IMG/VR virus record: IMGVR_UViG_3300028024_000024
Span: 1-27,631 of that record
Source of the DNA: a virus
Reading direction: 5' to 3' (one strand)
DNA: 27,631 bases
Shown: piece by piece, positions 3,385 through 20,733 of the stretch
Numbering within the stretch: position 1 is the first letter of the stretch
How the letters are laid out: every line of letters starts with the position of its first letter
Made by a program: the position numbers and the translations under genes
The notes under the pieces: generated by a model
What the model saw: only the letters and a program-made list of their open reading frames with translations
Told to the model about the DNA's origin: nothing
Database searches by the model: none

Positions 3385-3879
3385 ATGCCGGCCAATCGCA
3401 AAACTCGTCGTCCGTACAGCCCAACGCGCTCCGCCACCCGTATCGCTACATGGGCAGACCGGAAGATTGCAGAGCGCCCTATCAACGCCGACGCCCAGCG
3501 TGATATCGGAATTGCTGCGCACATCGCCTTTGAGCGGCTGCGCACTGGCGGCGACAAGGATTCGCTCTATATCCTGGCTACTGCATTCGACGTCGCCCAT
3601 GAACTGGCCGTAAAAGGCTGCGGCGCAGAGTACGTCAAGGAAATCGAGTCCGGTATGGCCGCACTGGTCGCCGCAAAGAAGCGCGCCAATCTGACCGGCA
3701 ACTGGTCGCTTGAGCCTGACGAATCGGAGCGGGCCGCGACGACGCTGGCGGTTCATGGCGCGCAACTCGAGATTGCCGGGCGAGGCGTGATCGTGAAAAC
3801 GCTGAATGACGTGATGGCGCGCGTATCGACCGGATCGCGCGAGACAGAGTTTGAATCTTTGATGATGGAGGCCGCGTAA
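3385..3879 (+). CDS. Conserved-looking phage protein, 164 residues, unknown function
   Basis: The gene starts directly after the RusA stop and overlaps the next start by one base (TAATG). The protein has a basic N-terminus (MPANRKTRRPYSPTRSATR) followed by predominantly helical sequence rich in Ala and Glu, with no membrane segment and no metal-binding cluster. I do not recognise a named domain. The basic head followed by helices could suit a DNA- or protein-binding accessory of the replication operon, but that is only context. It is clearly a real gene: reading frame length, codon use and tight packing all agree. Confidence 0.75.
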   Translation: MPANRKTRRPYSPTRSATRIATWADRKIAERPINADAQRDIGIAAHIAFERLRTGGDKDSLYILATAFDVAHELAVKGCGAEYVKEIESGMAALVAAKKRANLTGNWSLEPDESERAATTLAVHGAQLEIAGRGVIVKTLNDVMARVSTGSRETEFESLMMEAA

Positions 3880-4244
3880 TGCTTTCACGTTCCAAACAAA
3901 CAGAGCGGCTTGCCTCGATGATTGAAGCGATGCGCGAGAAAGGCCCGATGTCAGTCTCTGAATTGGTAAGCGTGACCGGATGGAGTCACGAAACCATTCG
4001 CTCACAAATCCGCAAATCGAAAGACACGTTTCAGCAGATCAGCGACCGTGAGTTGACGCCTGAAGGTTCCGTCGCAGCGATGTTTTATCTAACGAACGAA
4101 GCTCTCGGCATGAGTGAGGAAGAACTGGACCGAAAGGAAGATGATCGGTATCGGGATATGAAATGGTGGCCCAAGGCCGACCAGATCGTCACCTCAGCAA
4201 TGAACGCAATGGTAAAAACTGGAGAACAAACATGGCATCCGTGA
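3879..4244 (+). CDS. Winged-helix DNA-binding protein, 121 residues
   Basis: The N-terminal ~60 residues read as a winged helix-turn-helix: a helix ([16 protein letters not shown]), a recognition-type turn ([25 protein letters not shown]) and a short strand pair ([13 protein letters not shown]). The rest is acidic and helical. Such small phage proteins are usually regulators or replication-initiation helpers. The target and mode (repressor or activator) cannot be told from sequence. Its start overlaps the previous stop by one base and its 3' end overlaps the SSB start by 13 bases, so it is co-translated with SSB. Confidence 0.72.
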
Positions 4245-9205: not shown

Positions 9206-9604
9206 ATGACTCAAGATCAGAGTGAAGAAATCGAGCACTTGCTACGAACATGGTTTGACTGGCAGGTACGGCAGTCGCACAGAGAGATTCTGGCGCACTA
9301 CTACCGCCCGGAAGACATGACGTGCAAAAGGTATCAGACGCCCTCCTGCGCCCAGGAGGATGACGAGGACGCATATGCGTGGGCTGATGACCGGCAATCG
9401 GAGCAGGTGCAGCTTTGCGTCGATCAACTGCCGTCCGATCAGCGCGCCGCGATTTCCACATCCTTGCGTAATAAGAATTCTGGCGCGCAAGTCTGGAGAT
9501 CGAGCCGCGTTGACGATCAGCACGCGGTGTATCAGTCGGCAAAAGAGGGACTACTACCGCTTCTTCGGGCGCGGCATCTTGTGAAAATTATGGAGGCGGC
9601 GTGA
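9206..9604 (+). CDS. Putative late-gene regulator (Q-like antitermination / sigma-region-4-like protein)
   Basis: This is a 132-residue protein. The layout resembles small phage late regulators in Burkholderia-type phages: an N-terminal helix (EEIEHLLRTWFDWQ), then acidic middle, then QVQLCVDQLPSDQRAAISTSLRNKNSGAQVWRS, which reads like a sigma-region-4 helix-turn-helix. A final helix (YQSAKEGLLPLLRARHLVKIM) follows. The family resemblance is recalled, not searched. Context supports it strongly: it has its own promoter and precedes a promoter-terminator pair and the whole late operon. I chose ATG 9206; an upstream in-frame TTG-type start would extend the protein into the promoter. It overlaps the phosphatase start as GTGA. 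Confidence 0.55.
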   Translation: MTQDQSEEIEHLLRTWFDWQVRQSHREILAHYYRPEDMTCKRYQTPSCAQEDDEDAYAWADDRQSEQVQLCVDQLPSDQRAAISTSLRNKNSGAQVWRSSRVDDQHAVYQSAKEGLLPLLRARHLVKIMEAA

Positions 9605-10332: not shown

Positions 10333-10339
10333 AAATATT

Positions 10340-10380
10340 TTGCACAACCACTTGCATTCCATAAAATCATGTGCTCTAAT
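10340..10380 (+). promoter_or_regulatory. Candidate late promoter(s), pR'-like
   Basis: Two overlapping promoters fit. One has TTGCAC (10340-10345), a 16-base spacer and TAAAAT (10362-10367). The other has TTGCAT (10352-10357), a 17-base spacer and TCTAAT (10375-10380). CTTGCA occurs as a direct repeat at 10351-10356 and 10382-10387, flanking both -10 elements. This is the place where a Q-type protein could bind. Transcripts would start near 10374 or 10387 and meet the terminator at 10414-10439 almost at once. Confidence 0.55.
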
Positions 10381-10413
10381 TCTTGCAAGCCAAACTCGTC
10401 CAGAGAAAACGTA

Positions 10414-10439
10414 AGCCACCCCTAACCGGGTGGCTTTTT
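10414..10439 (+). terminator. Intrinsic terminator directly after the late promoter
   Basis: Perfect 8-bp stem AGCCACCC / GGGTGGCT (10414-10421 and 10428-10435) with a 6-base loop, followed by a T-run to 10439. It lies about 50-70 bases after the likely start of transcription and before the first late gene. Unless bypassed it would release only a very short RNA, as lambda tR' does. Confidence 0.85.
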
Positions 10440-10451
10440 GCGTTTACCGCC

Positions 10452-10637
10452 ATGCCTTCCATAACCTTCCAGTCGCGCACATACGGGCTCGACCCCATGA
10501 GGGCATTGGAGCAGAAGCAGAATGCGGAATTCCGCCAGAAGAAACGCATCATCGAAGGCGACGACTGCAAGAACTGGAGCCCGGCGCGGAAAGCGGCTGA
10601 GGAGTTGTTCGATATTCCTGCTGGGCGGAAGCCGTAA
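10452..10637 (+). CDS. Small 61-residue protein, unknown function
   Basis: This is the first frame after the late terminator. The protein MPSITFQSRTYGLDPMRALEQKQNAEF... is charged with helical segments and no recognisable motif. No good ribosome site precedes the ATG at 10452; another in-frame ATG lies at 10497. The TAATG overlap with the next gene supports that it is translated. It may be a minor late or accessory protein. Confidence 0.55.
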   Translation: MPSITFQSRTYGLDPMRALEQKQNAEFRQKKRIIEGDDCKNWSPARKAAEELFDIPAGRKP

Positions 10638-10849
10638 TGGGACTGATAGCAGCCGATGACATGACAGACCGCGAACAGGCGCGTTTGTATGAGTTCACGA
10701 AGGACGTGACGACCCTGGCGTTCCATACCGGGTACATCACAAACCGATGGAGCCCGAACGACGCTGCGCTGAACCGGTTGCGCGGATATTACGAGGCCGG
10801 ATTGACGGCTGACGAAGCGGCGATGGGGCTGTTTGCCACGCATCACTAG
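10637..10849 (+). CDS. Small 70-residue helical protein, unknown function
   Basis: The ATG shares its A with the previous TAA. Sequence is MGLIAADDMTDREQARLYEFTKDVTTLAFHTGYI followed by LNRLRGYYEAGLTADEAAMGLFATHH. It is mainly helical with an acidic surface and has no membrane segment. The C-terminal GLTADEAAMGLF looks like a small helical hairpin. The family is unrecognised. Confidence 0.62.
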   Translation: MGLIAADDMTDREQARLYEFTKDVTTLAFHTGYITNRWSPNDAALNRLRGYYEAGLTADEAAMGLFATHH

Positions 10850-10857
10850 AGAACGCC

Positions 10858-11034
10858 ATGAAAGCGACTCCGAAATCATGCTCCTGTCGCGGATGCCGAC
10901 AAGCAAAAAGCAGCAAGGGCGGCAATTTCATGATGAAGCACGCCGAGCGTGCGTTCCGTCATGCTTCCAATGCCGCCGCAAAGGTCGGAAACGACATGAT
11001 GGAGGCCGCCAGTCGGTCTGGGCGCATAGGTTGA
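10858..11034 (+). CDS. Small Cys-cluster protein, 58 residues
   Basis: It begins MKATPKSCSCRGCRQAKSSKGGNFMMKHAERAFRHASN. The CxCxxC cluster (Cys8, 10, 13) with basic residues around it and a following helix is a pattern I associate with short phage proteins of unknown role; it could bind one metal ion or nucleic acid. It starts 9 bases after the previous stop (spacer AGAGAACGCC). Codon use resembles neighbours. It is the last plausible gene before the structured 11035-11701 stretch. Confidence 0.6.
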   Translation: MKATPKSCSCRGCRQAKSSKGGNFMMKHAERAFRHASNAAAKVGNDMMEAASRSGRIG

Positions 11035-11701
11035 TCCTCGCTTCCCGCGCCAGCTGCGGTCGGCGCAGCAGTGTGAGACGGGCGCGGGAAGCACCTTGCA
11101 GTATGGCGATTCATGGTCCGGCAGATAGTCGGCAAGAGTCGCCATTCTGGAGGGCGCGGCATGCCGACCGTTACAGACCTCGGACCTGAAATCCGGCGTC
11201 GGTCGCTCTCCCCTATTTCGTATCCGACCGGATACGCCGACAGCCAAGCCGGCTGATAAACCGGCGATTCGATACCGAGCGGGAACGAATGTCGCTATCC
11301 AGCTAAACCGGATGCGAAAACCGGCGGAAATGTCGTCGGACAGCTTAAGTCGATTAAGCACGCTAATCGCCTCAGTGGGTGAGGCGCTTCACTATCGCGG
11401 CCATGTGAATTAATGTGGCCGTGTTCCAGGTGAGAATCCTGGGCCTTCATGCGGGCCTATTCGCGCGGACTGGCGTCGCTTCCGGCCGCGCAATCAACAG
11501 CGACAATTCCTCCTTTGTGTGTACAGCACAGGAAGGAATTGAATAGGCCCACGTGAAGGCGAAACAAGCATCGCGCGCGTCGATTGACGGCCACTGCGCC
11601 ATGCGGATGCGAGAAAGTAGTCTTCAACCCAATCCTCCACGGCGACTCCCCTTCGTCGTTTTCCGCACCGAAAGGCTGCGGGCTTTTATTCCGGTGCCCA
11701 G
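11035..11701 (+). other. Gene-poor, hairpin-rich stretch (667 bases)
   Basis: I see no convincing gene here. Small frames exist: MAIHGPADSRQ from ATG 11103, and MPTVTDLGPEIRRR from ATG 11161 with GGAGG 7 bases upstream. A longer open frame (about 11129-11412) lacks an upstream start codon. A Cys-containing frame from TTG 11584 runs into the next gene. What stands out is secondary structure; the strongest helices are listed under the ncRNA entry for 11040-11560. An imperfect repeat (GCGGGAACGAATGTCG at about 11279 and GCGGAAATGTCG at about 11324) adds to the impression of RNA rather than protein constraint. From 11561 to 11701 there are only weaker hairpins, such as GCACCG 11665-11670 with CGGTGC 11692-11697. 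Confidence 0.6.
11040..11560 (+). ncRNA. Candidate long structured RNA
   Basis: Successive helices visible in the sequence are as follows. A perfect 12-bp stem (11040-11051 with 11081-11092) encloses a perfect 6-bp hairpin (11053-11058/11064-11069). A 10-bp stem (11103-11112/11136-11145) encloses 11118-11122/11128-11132. Then come 11220-11225/11230-11235, 11343-11348/11354-11359, 11368-11374/11380-11386, 11396-11403/11416-11423 and 11426-11430/11438-11442. Finally a 20-position closing helix (11443-11462/11541-11560; 19 of 20 pair counting one G-U) encloses two more hairpins. Bases 11388-11392 (TTCAC) can pair with 11405-11409 in the next loop, giving a possible pseudoknot. Transcription would come from the late promoter. 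I recognise no named RNA family. Confidence 0.45.
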
Positions 11702-12088
11702 ATGGCTCGCAAACCGAAAGCGACTCCTGGGTACTTCGAGATTCCCGTTTTCCCGATCCCGATCTTTGGCGGGAAAATGCTCCTGTGCGTGACGCGCGAG
11801 GAATGGGCAAGCGTCGCCTACCAGTACGACAGCGACCCTGACACAGACGGCTGCAAGGGCCTGTCTATTCAGTACCGAACGCCGGAAGAGGGAAGAATTT
11901 ATTGCATCGGCGTGTTCGACGGCGCGATTGATACGTTCGTGCATGAGTTGGCGCACGCCGTGTTTCATATCCTCGGCGACGTCGGCATTCCGGTAGAAGA
12001 CGGTGCCGCGAATGAGGCATTTGCCTACATCCAAGGCCACTTGATGAAGGAAGCATTTCCCTCATTTCTCGCGGCAATCGCCGAATAG
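11702..12088 (+). CDS. HExxH metallopeptidase-like protein, 128 residues
   Basis: The key motif is HELAHAVFHIL (81-91), an HExxH zinc-peptidase active-site helix. Glu105 in NEAFAYIQGHL is in the position of a third ligand. The preceding part is beta-rich (YFEIPVFPIPIFGGKMLLCVTREEW). Small phage proteins of this kind are usually predicted peptidases of the ImmA/IrrE-like or minor gluzincin type; substrate is unknown. No ribosome site is evident before ATG 11702; translation may depend on structure upstream or on a short overlapping frame. It is not obviously part of the head operon. Confidence 0.72.
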   Translation: MARKPKATPGYFEIPVFPIPIFGGKMLLCVTREEWASVAYQYDSDPDTDGCKGLSIQYRTPEEGRIYCIGVFDGAIDTFVHELAHAVFHILGDVGIPVEDGAANEAFAYIQGHLMKEAFPSFLAAIAE

Positions 12089-18225: not shown

Positions 18226-18949
18226 GCGCGAACGCAACCCGGTCAGAACGCGAGGCGCAGAGCTGCGCTACGGCTCGCAACTCAGGAAGGTAGCGCAGCA
18301 GGTAGGCGCAATCATCCAACCGTTCACGCCGGGCGACATGAGCCAAGTGCCGACGATCGAGCAGTTGCTCGGCGCCTACGCCGACATGCTGAAGGGCTGG
18401 GCCACGCAGACGGCTAGCAACATGCTGATGGACGTCGCGCTGCGCGATGAGCAGACGTGGAAGGTGCTCGCTAAAGACCTATCGCGCGGGCTTCGCGAAG
18501 AAATCCGCAATGCGCCCACTGGCGCTGTTATGCGCACCCTGTTGGCGGAACAGGTCGATCTGATACAGAGCCTGCCGAGGGAAGCGGCGCAGCGCGTGCA
18601 TCAGTTGACTCTGGCAGGCATCGAAGACTCGACGCGCGCCAGTGTGATTGCCAAGGAAATCATGCGAACTGGCGAGGTAACGGCCGGTCGCGCGATGCTG
18701 ATTGCCCGCACCGAGGTGTCACGGACAGCCACCACGCTCACGCAGGCGCGGGCGCAGTCCATTGGTGCCGACTCCTATATCTGGCGGACCAGCGGCGATT
18801 CAGACGTTCGCAGCGATCACAAGAAACTCAACGGCAAGATTTTCCGCTGGGATGATCCGCCTGTTGCCGACGAACACTCGGGCACCCGCGCAAATCCTGG
18901 TTGCATCTGGAATTGCCGCTGCTACGCCGAGCCTATCATTCAAGACTGA
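18200..18949 (+). CDS. SPP1 gp7-type head morphogenesis protein
   Basis: This is a 249-residue minor head protein of the SPP1 gp7 / Mu gpF-like family, which binds the portal and helps DNA delivery. The signature is in the C-terminal half: ARTEVSRTATTLTQARAQSIGADSYIWRTSGDSDVRSDHKKLNGKIFRWDDPP, ending ANPGCIWNCRCYAEPI with the typical Cys/His metal-like cluster. I placed the start at ATG 18200, inside the previous gene; an in-frame ATG at 18134 would add residues that are not typical of the family. It sits directly after portal and before the protease/scaffold gene. Confidence 0.87.
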   Translation: MRNLTLDRKRERNPVRTRGAELRYGSQLRKVAQQVGAIIQPFTPGDMSQVPTIEQLLGAYADMLKGWATQTASNMLMDVALRDEQTWKVLAKDLSRGLREEIRNAPTGAVMRTLLAEQVDLIQSLPREAAQRVHQLTLAGIEDSTRASVIAKEIMRTGEVTAGRAMLIARTEVSRTATTLTQARAQSIGADSYIWRTSGDSDVRSDHKKLNGKIFRWDDPPVADEHSGTRANPGCIWNCRCYAEPIIQD

Positions 18950-18951
18950 CT

Positions 18952-20733
18952 ATGCCCAACGATGCCATCGTGATGGCTGCTGGCATCGCCTACATCGATC
19001 CTAGCGGCGATGTTCTTCTGCTTAAGCGCAGCCCCGATAGCGATCATGCGGGCAAATGGTGCTTTCCAGGCGGACACATCGACGAAGGCGAGACAGCCGA
19101 ACAGGCCGCGCGGCGCGAATCTAGCGAAGAAATCGGCCGATTCCCTTACGGCGAACTTGAGCAGATAGCACAGATTGTCAGTGACGAAGGCGTTGATTTC
19201 ACAATGTTCGCCTGCAGCGTCGATGCAAAGTTCAATCCTGTTCTCAATCGCGAACACACAGACTACGCATGGGTTCCTGTGAGCAAACTTCCCCATAACA
19301 CACATCCTGGCGTCAAGGCAGTACTCACGCACGACTGCGAATGCAAGGCATGCGCGAGCAAACGCGCGCCTACGAAAGATTCCGTGACTGCAGCCGGCTT
19401 CTTCGCTGGCGAGGAACTTGGACCCAACCAGTCCTTTACGCCAGAAGGGTTCCTCATCTGCGAGGCGGTTCCAATCGCGCGCATCGGAACGCAGCAATAC
19501 GCCGACATCGAGCTTCCTGATCTTGAGGCAGGCAAAGACGGGCTGATTGTTGTTGAGCGCAATCCTGATGTCGTGTTTGCACCCGACACGCTCGCCAGCC
19601 TGCTCGGGAAGCCGGTGACAATTGGTCATCCAGAGGGTGAGGTAACCCCCGATAACTGGTCCATCCTCTCCAAGGGATCGACATTTAACCCACGCCGAGG
19701 CGAAGGCGATCAGAGCGACCTACTTATTGCGGACCTGCTTATTCAGGACAAGTTCGCTATCAATGAAGTCCGCAATAACGGCCTGAAAGGAATTTCAGTC
19801 GGATACGACGCGGATTACCAGCAAATCGCGCCGGGACGGGCGCGGCAAACGACCATCGTGGCAAATCACGTTGCGTTGGTCAGGAACCCGCGCTGCGGGA
19901 TCACCTGCTCCGTCCAAGATTCAACCACCTCCCTAGGAGATCCACCCATGGCTGTTAAGAACGGCGCCGAATCCCTCAAGGATAAGTTGCGCAAATTGTT
20001 TATGGCGCGCGACTCGGAAGCCTTCGAGAAAGCGCTGTCGGAGGAAGTCGAAGGCGAGTCGGCTGGCGGCATTCCGGCGATCCACATCCATATGTCAACC
20101 AAAGACGCAGAGTCCGAGGAAGACAAGAAGGATGACGACAAGAAGGAAGAAACGAAGGACGAAGGTCCAGACGTCGCTTCCGTGCTGACCAAGATCGATG
20201 AACGCCTGACGTCGCTCGAAAAGTGCGTTAGCGCGATGACTAAGGACTCGGCCGAGGAAGACAAGAAGGACGATACCAAGGACGACGGCGAGGAAGTTGA
20301 CCCGGACATGACCGAGGACGAGGACGCGGAAGAAAAGGACGACGATAAAAAGCCGACCAAAGACTCCGCCTCATTCCGCGATGAATTTCAGGATGCCAAG
20401 GCTCGCGCCGAAATCCTGGCTCCTGGCGTGAAGCTGCCCACGTTCGACGCCAAGGCAGATGGCAAGAAGACCGCTGACGCCATCTGCGTGCTGCGTCGTC
20501 GCGCCCTGCGTGCCGGCCTCGACAACAGCAACGCCGAACTCGTGCGCGCCATCACTGGCGATGCAGACGTATCGAAAATGGACTGTGCTGCCGCAAAGAT
20601 GGCTTTCCACGCTGCATCTGAGTTGGTCAAGCGCAAAAACATGAGCGTCGCCCGAAAGACGACGGATGCTGCGGCGGAAGCCGAAGACATCAACGAAAAA
20701 CACCGCAAGTTCTGGAATCAACACAAGGCGTAA
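18952..20733 (+). CDS. NUDIX hydrolase - DUF2213 capsid protease - scaffold fusion
   Basis: This is a 593-residue three-part protein. Residues 1-140 form a NUDIX domain with an intact box from Gly41 through Glu47, the RE pair at 55-56 and EEIG at 59-62, so it should hydrolyse a nucleoside diphosphate derivative. Residues about 145-325 match DUF2213, probably the capsid maturation protease, with a Ser in GISVGYD (Ser282) and a His in NHVALV (His306) as candidate catalytic residues. Residues 333-593 are scaffold-like: extremely acidic/Lys-rich low complexity (385-475) and a helical C-terminus. A strong ribosome site and ATG at 19948 would give the scaffold alone. The domain assignments are seen; the protease role is inferred. 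Confidence 0.85.
   Translation: MPNDAIVMAAGIAYIDPSGDVLLLKRSPDSDHAGKWCFPGGHIDEGETAEQAARRESSEEIGRFPYGELEQIAQIVSDEGVDFTMFACSVDAKFNPVLNREHTDYAWVPVSKLPHNTHPGVKAVLTHDCECKACASKRAPTKDSVTAAGFFAGEELGPNQSFTPEGFLICEAVPIARIGTQQYADIELPDLEAGKDGLIVVERNPDVVFAPDTLASLLGKPVTIGHPEGEVTPDNWSILSKGSTFNPRRGEGDQSDLLIADLLIQDKFAINEVRNNGLKGISVGYDADYQQIAPGRARQTTIVANHVALVRNPRCGITCSVQDSTTSLGDPPMAVKNGAESLKDKLRKLFMARDSEAFEKALSEEVEGESAGGIPAIHIHMSTKDAESEEDKKDDDKKEETKDEGPDVASVLTKIDERLTSLEKCVSAMTKDSAEEDKKDDTKDDGEEVDPDMTEDEDAEEKDDDKKPTKDSASFRDEFQDAKARAEILAPGVKLPTFDAKADGKKTADAICVLRRRALRAGLDNSNAELVRAITGDADVSKMDCAAAKMAFHAASELVKRKNMSVARKTTDAAAEAEDINEKHRKFWNQHKA
19935..19939 (+). promoter_or_regulatory. Internal ribosome site for a nested scaffold gene
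   Basis: AGGAG lies 8 bases before an in-frame ATG (19948) inside the fusion gene, exactly at the junction between the protease part and the charged scaffold part. This is one of the best ribosome sites in the window, and it has no role in translating the full-length protein. Confidence 0.65.
19948..20733 (+). CDS. Nested scaffold protein (internal start, same frame as the fusion)
   Basis: Translation from ATG 19948 would give 261 residues, identical to residues 333-593 of the full product. It starts MAVKNGAESLKDKLRKLF, has an acidic/Lys-rich middle and ends in a helical segment (KFWNQHKA). This mirrors lambda C/Nu3 and similar protease-scaffold pairs, in which the scaffold is made in excess from an internal start and removed by the protease. 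The evidence is the strong ribosome site and its placement at the domain junction; expression is not proven. Confidence 0.6.
   Translation: MAVKNGAESLKDKLRKLFMARDSEAFEKALSEEVEGESAGGIPAIHIHMSTKDAESEEDKKDDDKKEETKDEGPDVASVLTKIDERLTSLEKCVSAMTKDSAEEDKKDDTKDDGEEVDPDMTEDEDAEEKDDDKKPTKDSASFRDEFQDAKARAEILAPGVKLPTFDAKADGKKTADAICVLRRRALRAGLDNSNAELVRAITGDADVSKMDCAAAKMAFHAASELVKRKNMSVARKTTDAAAEAEDINEKHRKFWNQHKA

Follow-up and report, generated by a model that had tools for sequence, protein, structure and literature searches.

The DNA analysed here (the window; 27,631 nt, IMG/VR record IMGVR_UViG_3300028024_000024) is part of a tailed temperate-type phage. On the left it carries helicase, primase, SSB, NinB and NinI-like genes, and on the right exonuclease, TerS, TerL, portal and capsid genes, all of them on the + strand, some of these names having been assigned by reading the translations. 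Between the two groups stands a non-coding island of structured RNA (11033-11690, +), which is bordered on its 5' side by two small ORFs, smA (10452-10637, +) and smB (10637-10849, +), and ends on its 3' side with the intrinsic terminator T2 (11663-11690, +). No known family was matched by smA or smB; homologues of both are found 5' of the island in most relatives. The next gene downstream is a HELAH metalloprotease-like gene (11702-12088, +; phrog_1365), the ATG of which (11702) follows T2 by approximately 20 nt; this HELAH protein is also encoded by P22-like and mEp021-like coliphages, with the annotation 'hypothetical'. Wherever the flanking genes were recognisable, the position of the island was constant, i.e., after smA/smB and before the metalloprotease or before the exonuclease, TerS and TerL. 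Farther downstream, a long ORF (18901-20733) appears by eye to begin with an N-terminal NUDIX hydrolase-like part, after which come a part resembling a head protease and acidic repeats.

An earlier note, made from the letters of the sequence, had described positions 11035-11560 as a gene-free stretch of at least ten helices and possibly one long, undescribed structured RNA. Every helix that it named is present: the perfect 12-bp stem (S1, 11040-11051/11081-11092) with its nested 6-bp hairpin (S2, 11053-11058/11064-11069), the 10-bp stem with a nested hairpin, which is part of a larger hairpin termed X1 (11094-11112/11136-11154), and the 20-position helix with 19 pairs (11444-11463/11540-11559), which encloses two hairpins. 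The range given was incomplete, as the island is larger: nearly all of the 3' core (11552-11626), which is its most conserved part, falls beyond that range, and so does T2. The checks proposed there included folding and an Rfam search: the fold of 11000-11720 reached -326.9 kcal/mol vs. -278.1 ± 9.7 kcal/mol for dinucleotide shuffles (z = -5.04, 0 of 20 shuffles as good), and no Rfam family matched the window at gathering score, with only chance-level matches over the island at E <= 10. Searching the island with blastn against 50,697 deposited phage records returned no match. ARAGORN and RF00005 detected no tRNA in the window, and an intact tRNA array was ruled out there because ARAGORN finds none.

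The probability that the stretch is an overlooked protein-coding region is negligible. Mechanically called ORFs of 118 aa (+) and 161 aa (-) do overlap it, but both are refuted by the alignment of the window with a related locus (L001), in which indels of 7 and 8 nt break the overlapping frames and thus exclude a conserved reading frame; none of the ORFs tested in the island matched PHROGs, and the RNA covariation described below also argues against coding. The island is clearly a real structured RNA, neither protein nor junk.

Relatives were collected by several routes. Searches with the metalloprotease gene gave 4 relatives and those with TerL 80 loci, and related non-coding stretches were found at the corresponding place in the relatives obtained in this way. 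A degenerate pattern for the conserved 3' end retrieved 45 stretches in viral contigs, and in total approximately 50 related loci from viral contigs and prophages were assembled. Three loci (L096, L107 and L125) were removed as chance matches of the core pattern in unrelated sequence (12.9 bits for both L107 and L125), and one more (L129) was dropped at only 13.9 bits. When genomes were scanned with a stricter core pattern, the hits were in Paraburkholderia dilworthii WSM3556, in P. phenoliruptrix LMG 22037 and in one MAG, the last of these being spurious (13.9 bits). The core model R1 matched 10 genomes out of 146 from the genus group of P. dilworthii, and a sample of 398 genomes spanning the family contained 3 with a match. 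The hosts are Paraburkholderia relatives, and the islands, approximately 270 to 1000 nt long, have three recurring parts: a 5' element, variable X-core units and a 75-nt 3' core. That the RNA is structured and undescribed was thereby borne out, given homologues with compensatory stem changes, the lack of an Rfam family and the constant place 5' of exonuclease/TerS/TerL; stem changes without compensation, named in the note as a ground for refutation, were not what we found, as the core and the 5' element covary strongly. A single fixed RNA, on the other hand, is not what the homologues show, the island being a mosaic of swappable modules.

The 5' element (11033-11096, +) consists of stem S1 with the nested hairpin S2 and scores 65.5 bits in the window with its model R2, which matched approximately 30 further loci, including some outside its building set. 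Its sequence recurs as TGATCCCC..GCTTCC..GCCAGCCGRTAGGC..ACGGGC.. in many islands. Thirteen of the 16 pairs have changed on both sides, and the covariation score was 0.433 vs. 0.213 ± 0.018 for shuffled alignments (slid, <= 0.12). When loci were sought with a 5'-element pattern that made no reference to the core, new ones were found, and in five of these (L139, L142, L143, L146 and L153) the same strand carried an R1 core farther downstream. An R2 5' element precedes the core in at least 25 core loci, and about half of the core loci have no R2 match; in the latter, the element is either absent or diverged beyond R2. In one locus (L140), no unit separates the 5' element from T2. In another (L086), a second 5' element without a core (3826-3888) is surrounded by structural genes; it immediately follows a stop codon and precedes another terminator-gene pair by approximately 120 nt.

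The 3' core (11552-11626, +; 75 nt, 83.4 bits with R1) is closed by helix P1 (11555-11560/11620-11625), which pairs GARGGY with RYYYTC, and continues with P2, a bulged G, P3, a hairpin whose CGAUWG loop is closed by three pairs that vary freely, and a second hairpin. RNAalifold recovered this fold unaided from an alignment of 32 core sequences (A1). The covariation analysis was repeated on 49 distinct sequences, in which 94.2% of the cells were paired, 12 of the 22 pairs had changed on both sides and 154 cells were changed on both sides vs. 37.2 ± 4.9 after shuffling, with a covariation score of 0.475 vs. 0.176 ± 0.010 (slid, <= 0.114). The search pattern left P1, P2 and both arms of the first core hairpin free; it fixed the loop and some bases of hp2 and P3, and the invariance at those places is partly by construction. 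Each locus has one copy of the R1 core, at the 3' end of the island. In four loci (L070 at 4040-4200, L137, L138 and L150) a second type of terminal core, GAGGGTGACAGCCGCA...GCGGAYTCCCTC, replaces it.

Upstream of the core, a long hairpin (X; 15-22 positions) is present in nearly every core locus and ends exactly on the GARGG strand of P1, so that this strand is both the 3' strand of X and the 5' strand of the closing helix of the next domain. In the terminal unit of the window, hairpin X (11444-11559, +) is formed by the 20-position helix mentioned above, for which 0 of 200 shuffles were as good, and positions 11555-11559 are common to X and P1. Immediately 5' of it stands hairpin c (11426-11442, +), a T-arm-like hairpin with a 5-bp stem and a 7-nt loop, equivalents of which precede X in many loci. 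The window has two X-core units, the other being unit 1 (11094-11211, +), in which hairpin X1 is followed by the shared strand b (11149-11156) and by a core with an inner hairpin (11181-11196), the P1 of which is closed with a' (11204-11211); this core is shared with one other locus (L136). Across loci, the X stem beats all 200 shuffles in 35 of 40 cases, and its bottom eight pairs covary (93.1% vs. a shuffled maximum of 86.1%). As X and P1 both use the GARGG strand, this strand has two mutually exclusive partners, and the two pairings are nearly isoenergetic in the model (mean difference between the X-closed and the P1-closed state +1.05 kcal/mol, range -4.3 to +8.4). The same a-X-b-core-a' arrangement recurs upstream with other core types and other pairings (GAGAG/CTCTC, GAGGG/CCCTC, GAAGG/CCTTC). 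A scan for such units found 63 in 44.4 kb of islands (1.42 per kb) vs. a single one in the coding DNA downstream (102.9 kb, 0.01 per kb), and the opposite strand within the islands gave 0.35 per kb; the thresholds were set after units had been seen, and the ratio therefore carries more weight than the absolute rate.

A self-cleaving ribozyme, or a processing site at which the late transcript would be cut and RNA modules released, could in principle be suspected in the core, considering that it folds compactly within 75 nt, with a three-way junction, a bulged G and a large number of unpaired bases that do not vary, that it occurs once per island, at the 3' end, and that the long X stems are plausible RNase III substrates. 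We regard this as quite improbable, as the core bears no likeness to any of 4227 Rfam models, known self-cleaving ribozymes included, and the search pattern has itself imposed part of the invariance of the unpaired bases.

Between unit 1 and hairpin c, the window contains variable middle modules (11212-11425, +) with hairpins at 11220-11235, 11249-11264, 11308-11324, 11369-11385 and 11397-11422, which are kept in L001 up to 11393 and are missing or replaced elsewhere. Comparisons between islands gave further cases of this kind. The window and L001 are 89% identical over 380 columns, after which their X hairpins differ and their cores are again the same (97%), while the window and L136 have only the unit-1 core in common, with a G-C to A-U exchange in the stem. 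The terminal X of L124 matches the X of a different inner unit in L001 over 88 nt (95% identity), and thus stands on the terminal core in one locus and on another core in the other; likewise, the X of L008 recurs as an inner X in L004 (91.5% identity over 106 nt), where it is joined to a different core. L003 and L061 have a common 119-nt module (90% identity) and no other match at E 1e-3, and L139 and L142 have 277 nt in common and then diverge. The build is modular, i.e., a 5' element, zero to several X-core units, a terminal core and T2, and the modules appear, from these alignments, to be swapped between phages.

Several islands have other RNAs as company. tRNA genes are located in or beside the islands of L008/L010, L087, L095, L109, L114, L121, L136, L143 and L164, and the tip of the X hairpin in L099 is a tRNA that lacks the anticodon arm (31.6 bits). 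L139 contains a Proteo-phage-1 RNA (RF03044; 6925-7005, 48.1 bits) between the 5' element and the core of its island, as well as a tRNA-like stretch ending in CCA. A cloverleaf seen by eye at the X tip of L008 had no Rfam support and is kept as a lead only, and the many weak calls that ARAGORN gave at relaxed score on both strands of all islands were judged to be mostly noise. Near three islands an int-alpA RNA (RF02996) was found (L004 2810-2875, L153 1399-1464, L169 2835-2906). Degenerate tRNAs as module tips, and tRNA genes in several islands, would also be seen if the islands were remnants of decayed tRNA arrays, with incidental stable hairpins and no present function, but this is very improbable: compensatory changes across approximately 50 loci occur in parts that are not tRNA-like and the shared-strand arrangement is conserved, both of which require selection on structure.

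With regard to transcription, a late promoter candidate (10342-10367, +; sigma-70-like, TTGCAC-16-TAAAAT) stands directly after the NinI-like gene; a consensus scan gave one overlapping site (10339-10367), which is no more than expected by chance. Relatives (L001, L015 and L064) have stronger promoters at the same place (TTGACA-16-TATTCT in L001), followed by T1, an intrinsic terminator that in the window lies 5' of smA (10413-10441, +). Downstream of the core (or of the 5' element, in loci lacking a detected core), 44 of 53 cases also had an intrinsic terminator, which usually stood 6-24 nt 5' of the next ORF; at 20-105 nt after the core, the counts were 25 of 39 loci vs. 62 of 2340 randomly chosen positions. 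The late region of the window has four strong + strand terminators (10413, 11663, 21283 and 24502), each of them 17-26 nt before an ORF, which implies that the late polymerase must pass terminators and suggests processive antitermination through the late operon. In the relatives, a promoter-terminator-gene cassette precedes the late genes, a layout that we infer to resemble lambda-type Q control, and the island, judging by its position in the sequence, is probably transcribed late, behind T1. A conserved 131-aa protein encoded upstream of NinI (9209-9601; all-helical, model pLDDT 77) was examined as a Q-like antiterminator and had neither a family nor a fold match; by position, it is a candidate late regulator. 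The notion that the 5' element is an obligatory late antiterminator was weakened, as relatives without it keep the same promoter-terminator-gene layout and R2 has no match in the HK022 genome.

Somewhat better than even, in our judgement, are the chances that the island is a locus at which structured RNA genes are carried as cassettes, early in the late operon, with RNA products that most likely act in trans. Transcription would start at the late promoter and pass T1 by antitermination, the transcript would end at T2 or read through it, and the products would work as late-lytic small RNAs, sponges or decoys; the recurring GARGG/YYTTC segments may be the seam at which recombination swaps modules. 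The two grounds for action in trans are the modularity and the company of tRNAs and Proteo-phage-1. A regulatory role, as the earlier note had proposed, is possible, while nothing was found in favour of the assembly role that it had also suggested. Against RNA genes stand the closeness of T2 to the next start codon and the alternative pairing just 5' of the terminator, both of which are also expected of a cis-acting leader. Such a late leader, in which the 5' element and/or the X-core switch would control passage of T2 and later terminators by acting on RNA polymerase or on the folding of the nascent RNA (put-, EAR- or attenuator-like), is the main rival, tenable but not probable. The placing of terminators after cores and shortly before ORFs agrees with it, as do the four late terminators of the window, the locus with a 5' element and T2 only (L140), the second 5' element standing alone before another terminator-gene pair (L086) and the small mean energy difference between the X-closed and P1-closed states. 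However, relatives without a detectable island keep the terminators before their late genes and the lambda-like cassette, so passage of the terminators does not seem to need the island; moreover, a tRNA or a small ORF lies between core and T2 in several loci, the T2 stem contains none of the switch strands, and the 5' element was not found by R2 in about half of the core loci.

We consider fairly unlikely a combinatorial system of RNA domains, in which late RNAs would be built from a shared pool of hairpins and cores, joined at a short strand able to flip between two partners, and would act as hypervariable, partly tRNA-derived decoys or inhibitors against varying host targets (e.g., tRNA-cutting or RNA-sensing defences). 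Domains acting in trans would make the locus a natural library of phage RNA effectors, while action in cis would make it a new class of late-operon control RNA. The island adds an apparently undescribed, covariation-supported RNA family from phages of soil and plant-associated Burkholderiaceae, in which RNA domains seem to be exchanged between phages in the manner of protein-coding cassettes.

Among known RNAs, GOLLD and ROOL are structured RNAs of large size encoded by phages and prophages, frequently in the neighbourhood of tRNA genes (PMC12286853). Neither model matched the window (gathering score; E <= 10 over the island) or 54 related loci (gathering score). The island is like GOLLD in kind, with a conserved 3' part, a variable 5' part and tRNA neighbours (PMC12286853), and differs from both in its domains, which are swapped between phages and share a strand, as well as in its hosts and length. 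Proteo-phage-1, likewise a structured RNA of proteobacterial phages, was found at gathering score only in L139 and neither in the window nor in the 53 other related loci scanned; it is an occasional passenger with a fold different from those of the 5' element and the core. The put RNA of HK022 is a nascent RNA element of approximately 70 nt located upstream of terminators in a phage operon, with two separate stem-loops downstream of early promoters (PMC9378689). The 5' element resembles it in size and could act likewise; however, in place of two stem-loops it has one long stem with a nested hairpin, and the late promoter candidate is over 600 nt away. In a riboswitch or attenuator, one of two mutually exclusive helices would be a terminator or would sequester it; the X and P1 pairings do exclude each other, and neither of them involves the T2 stem. 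The organisation, with RNA domains exchanged at a short shared strand, was not found in Rfam 15 or open-access papers, and the RNA family and its modular architecture, absent from both, appear to be new. In the late region of lambdoid phages, Pas, AgvB, AsxR and Esr41 are non-coding RNA cargo carried beside tRNA genes by temperate phages (PMC13192938). These are separate sRNAs, none of which matches the island, and a shared-strand, multi-unit design was not described for them in the literature examined; it is nevertheless reasonable to suppose, by analogy, that the island works like this late-region RNA cargo of lambdoid phages (PMC13192938).
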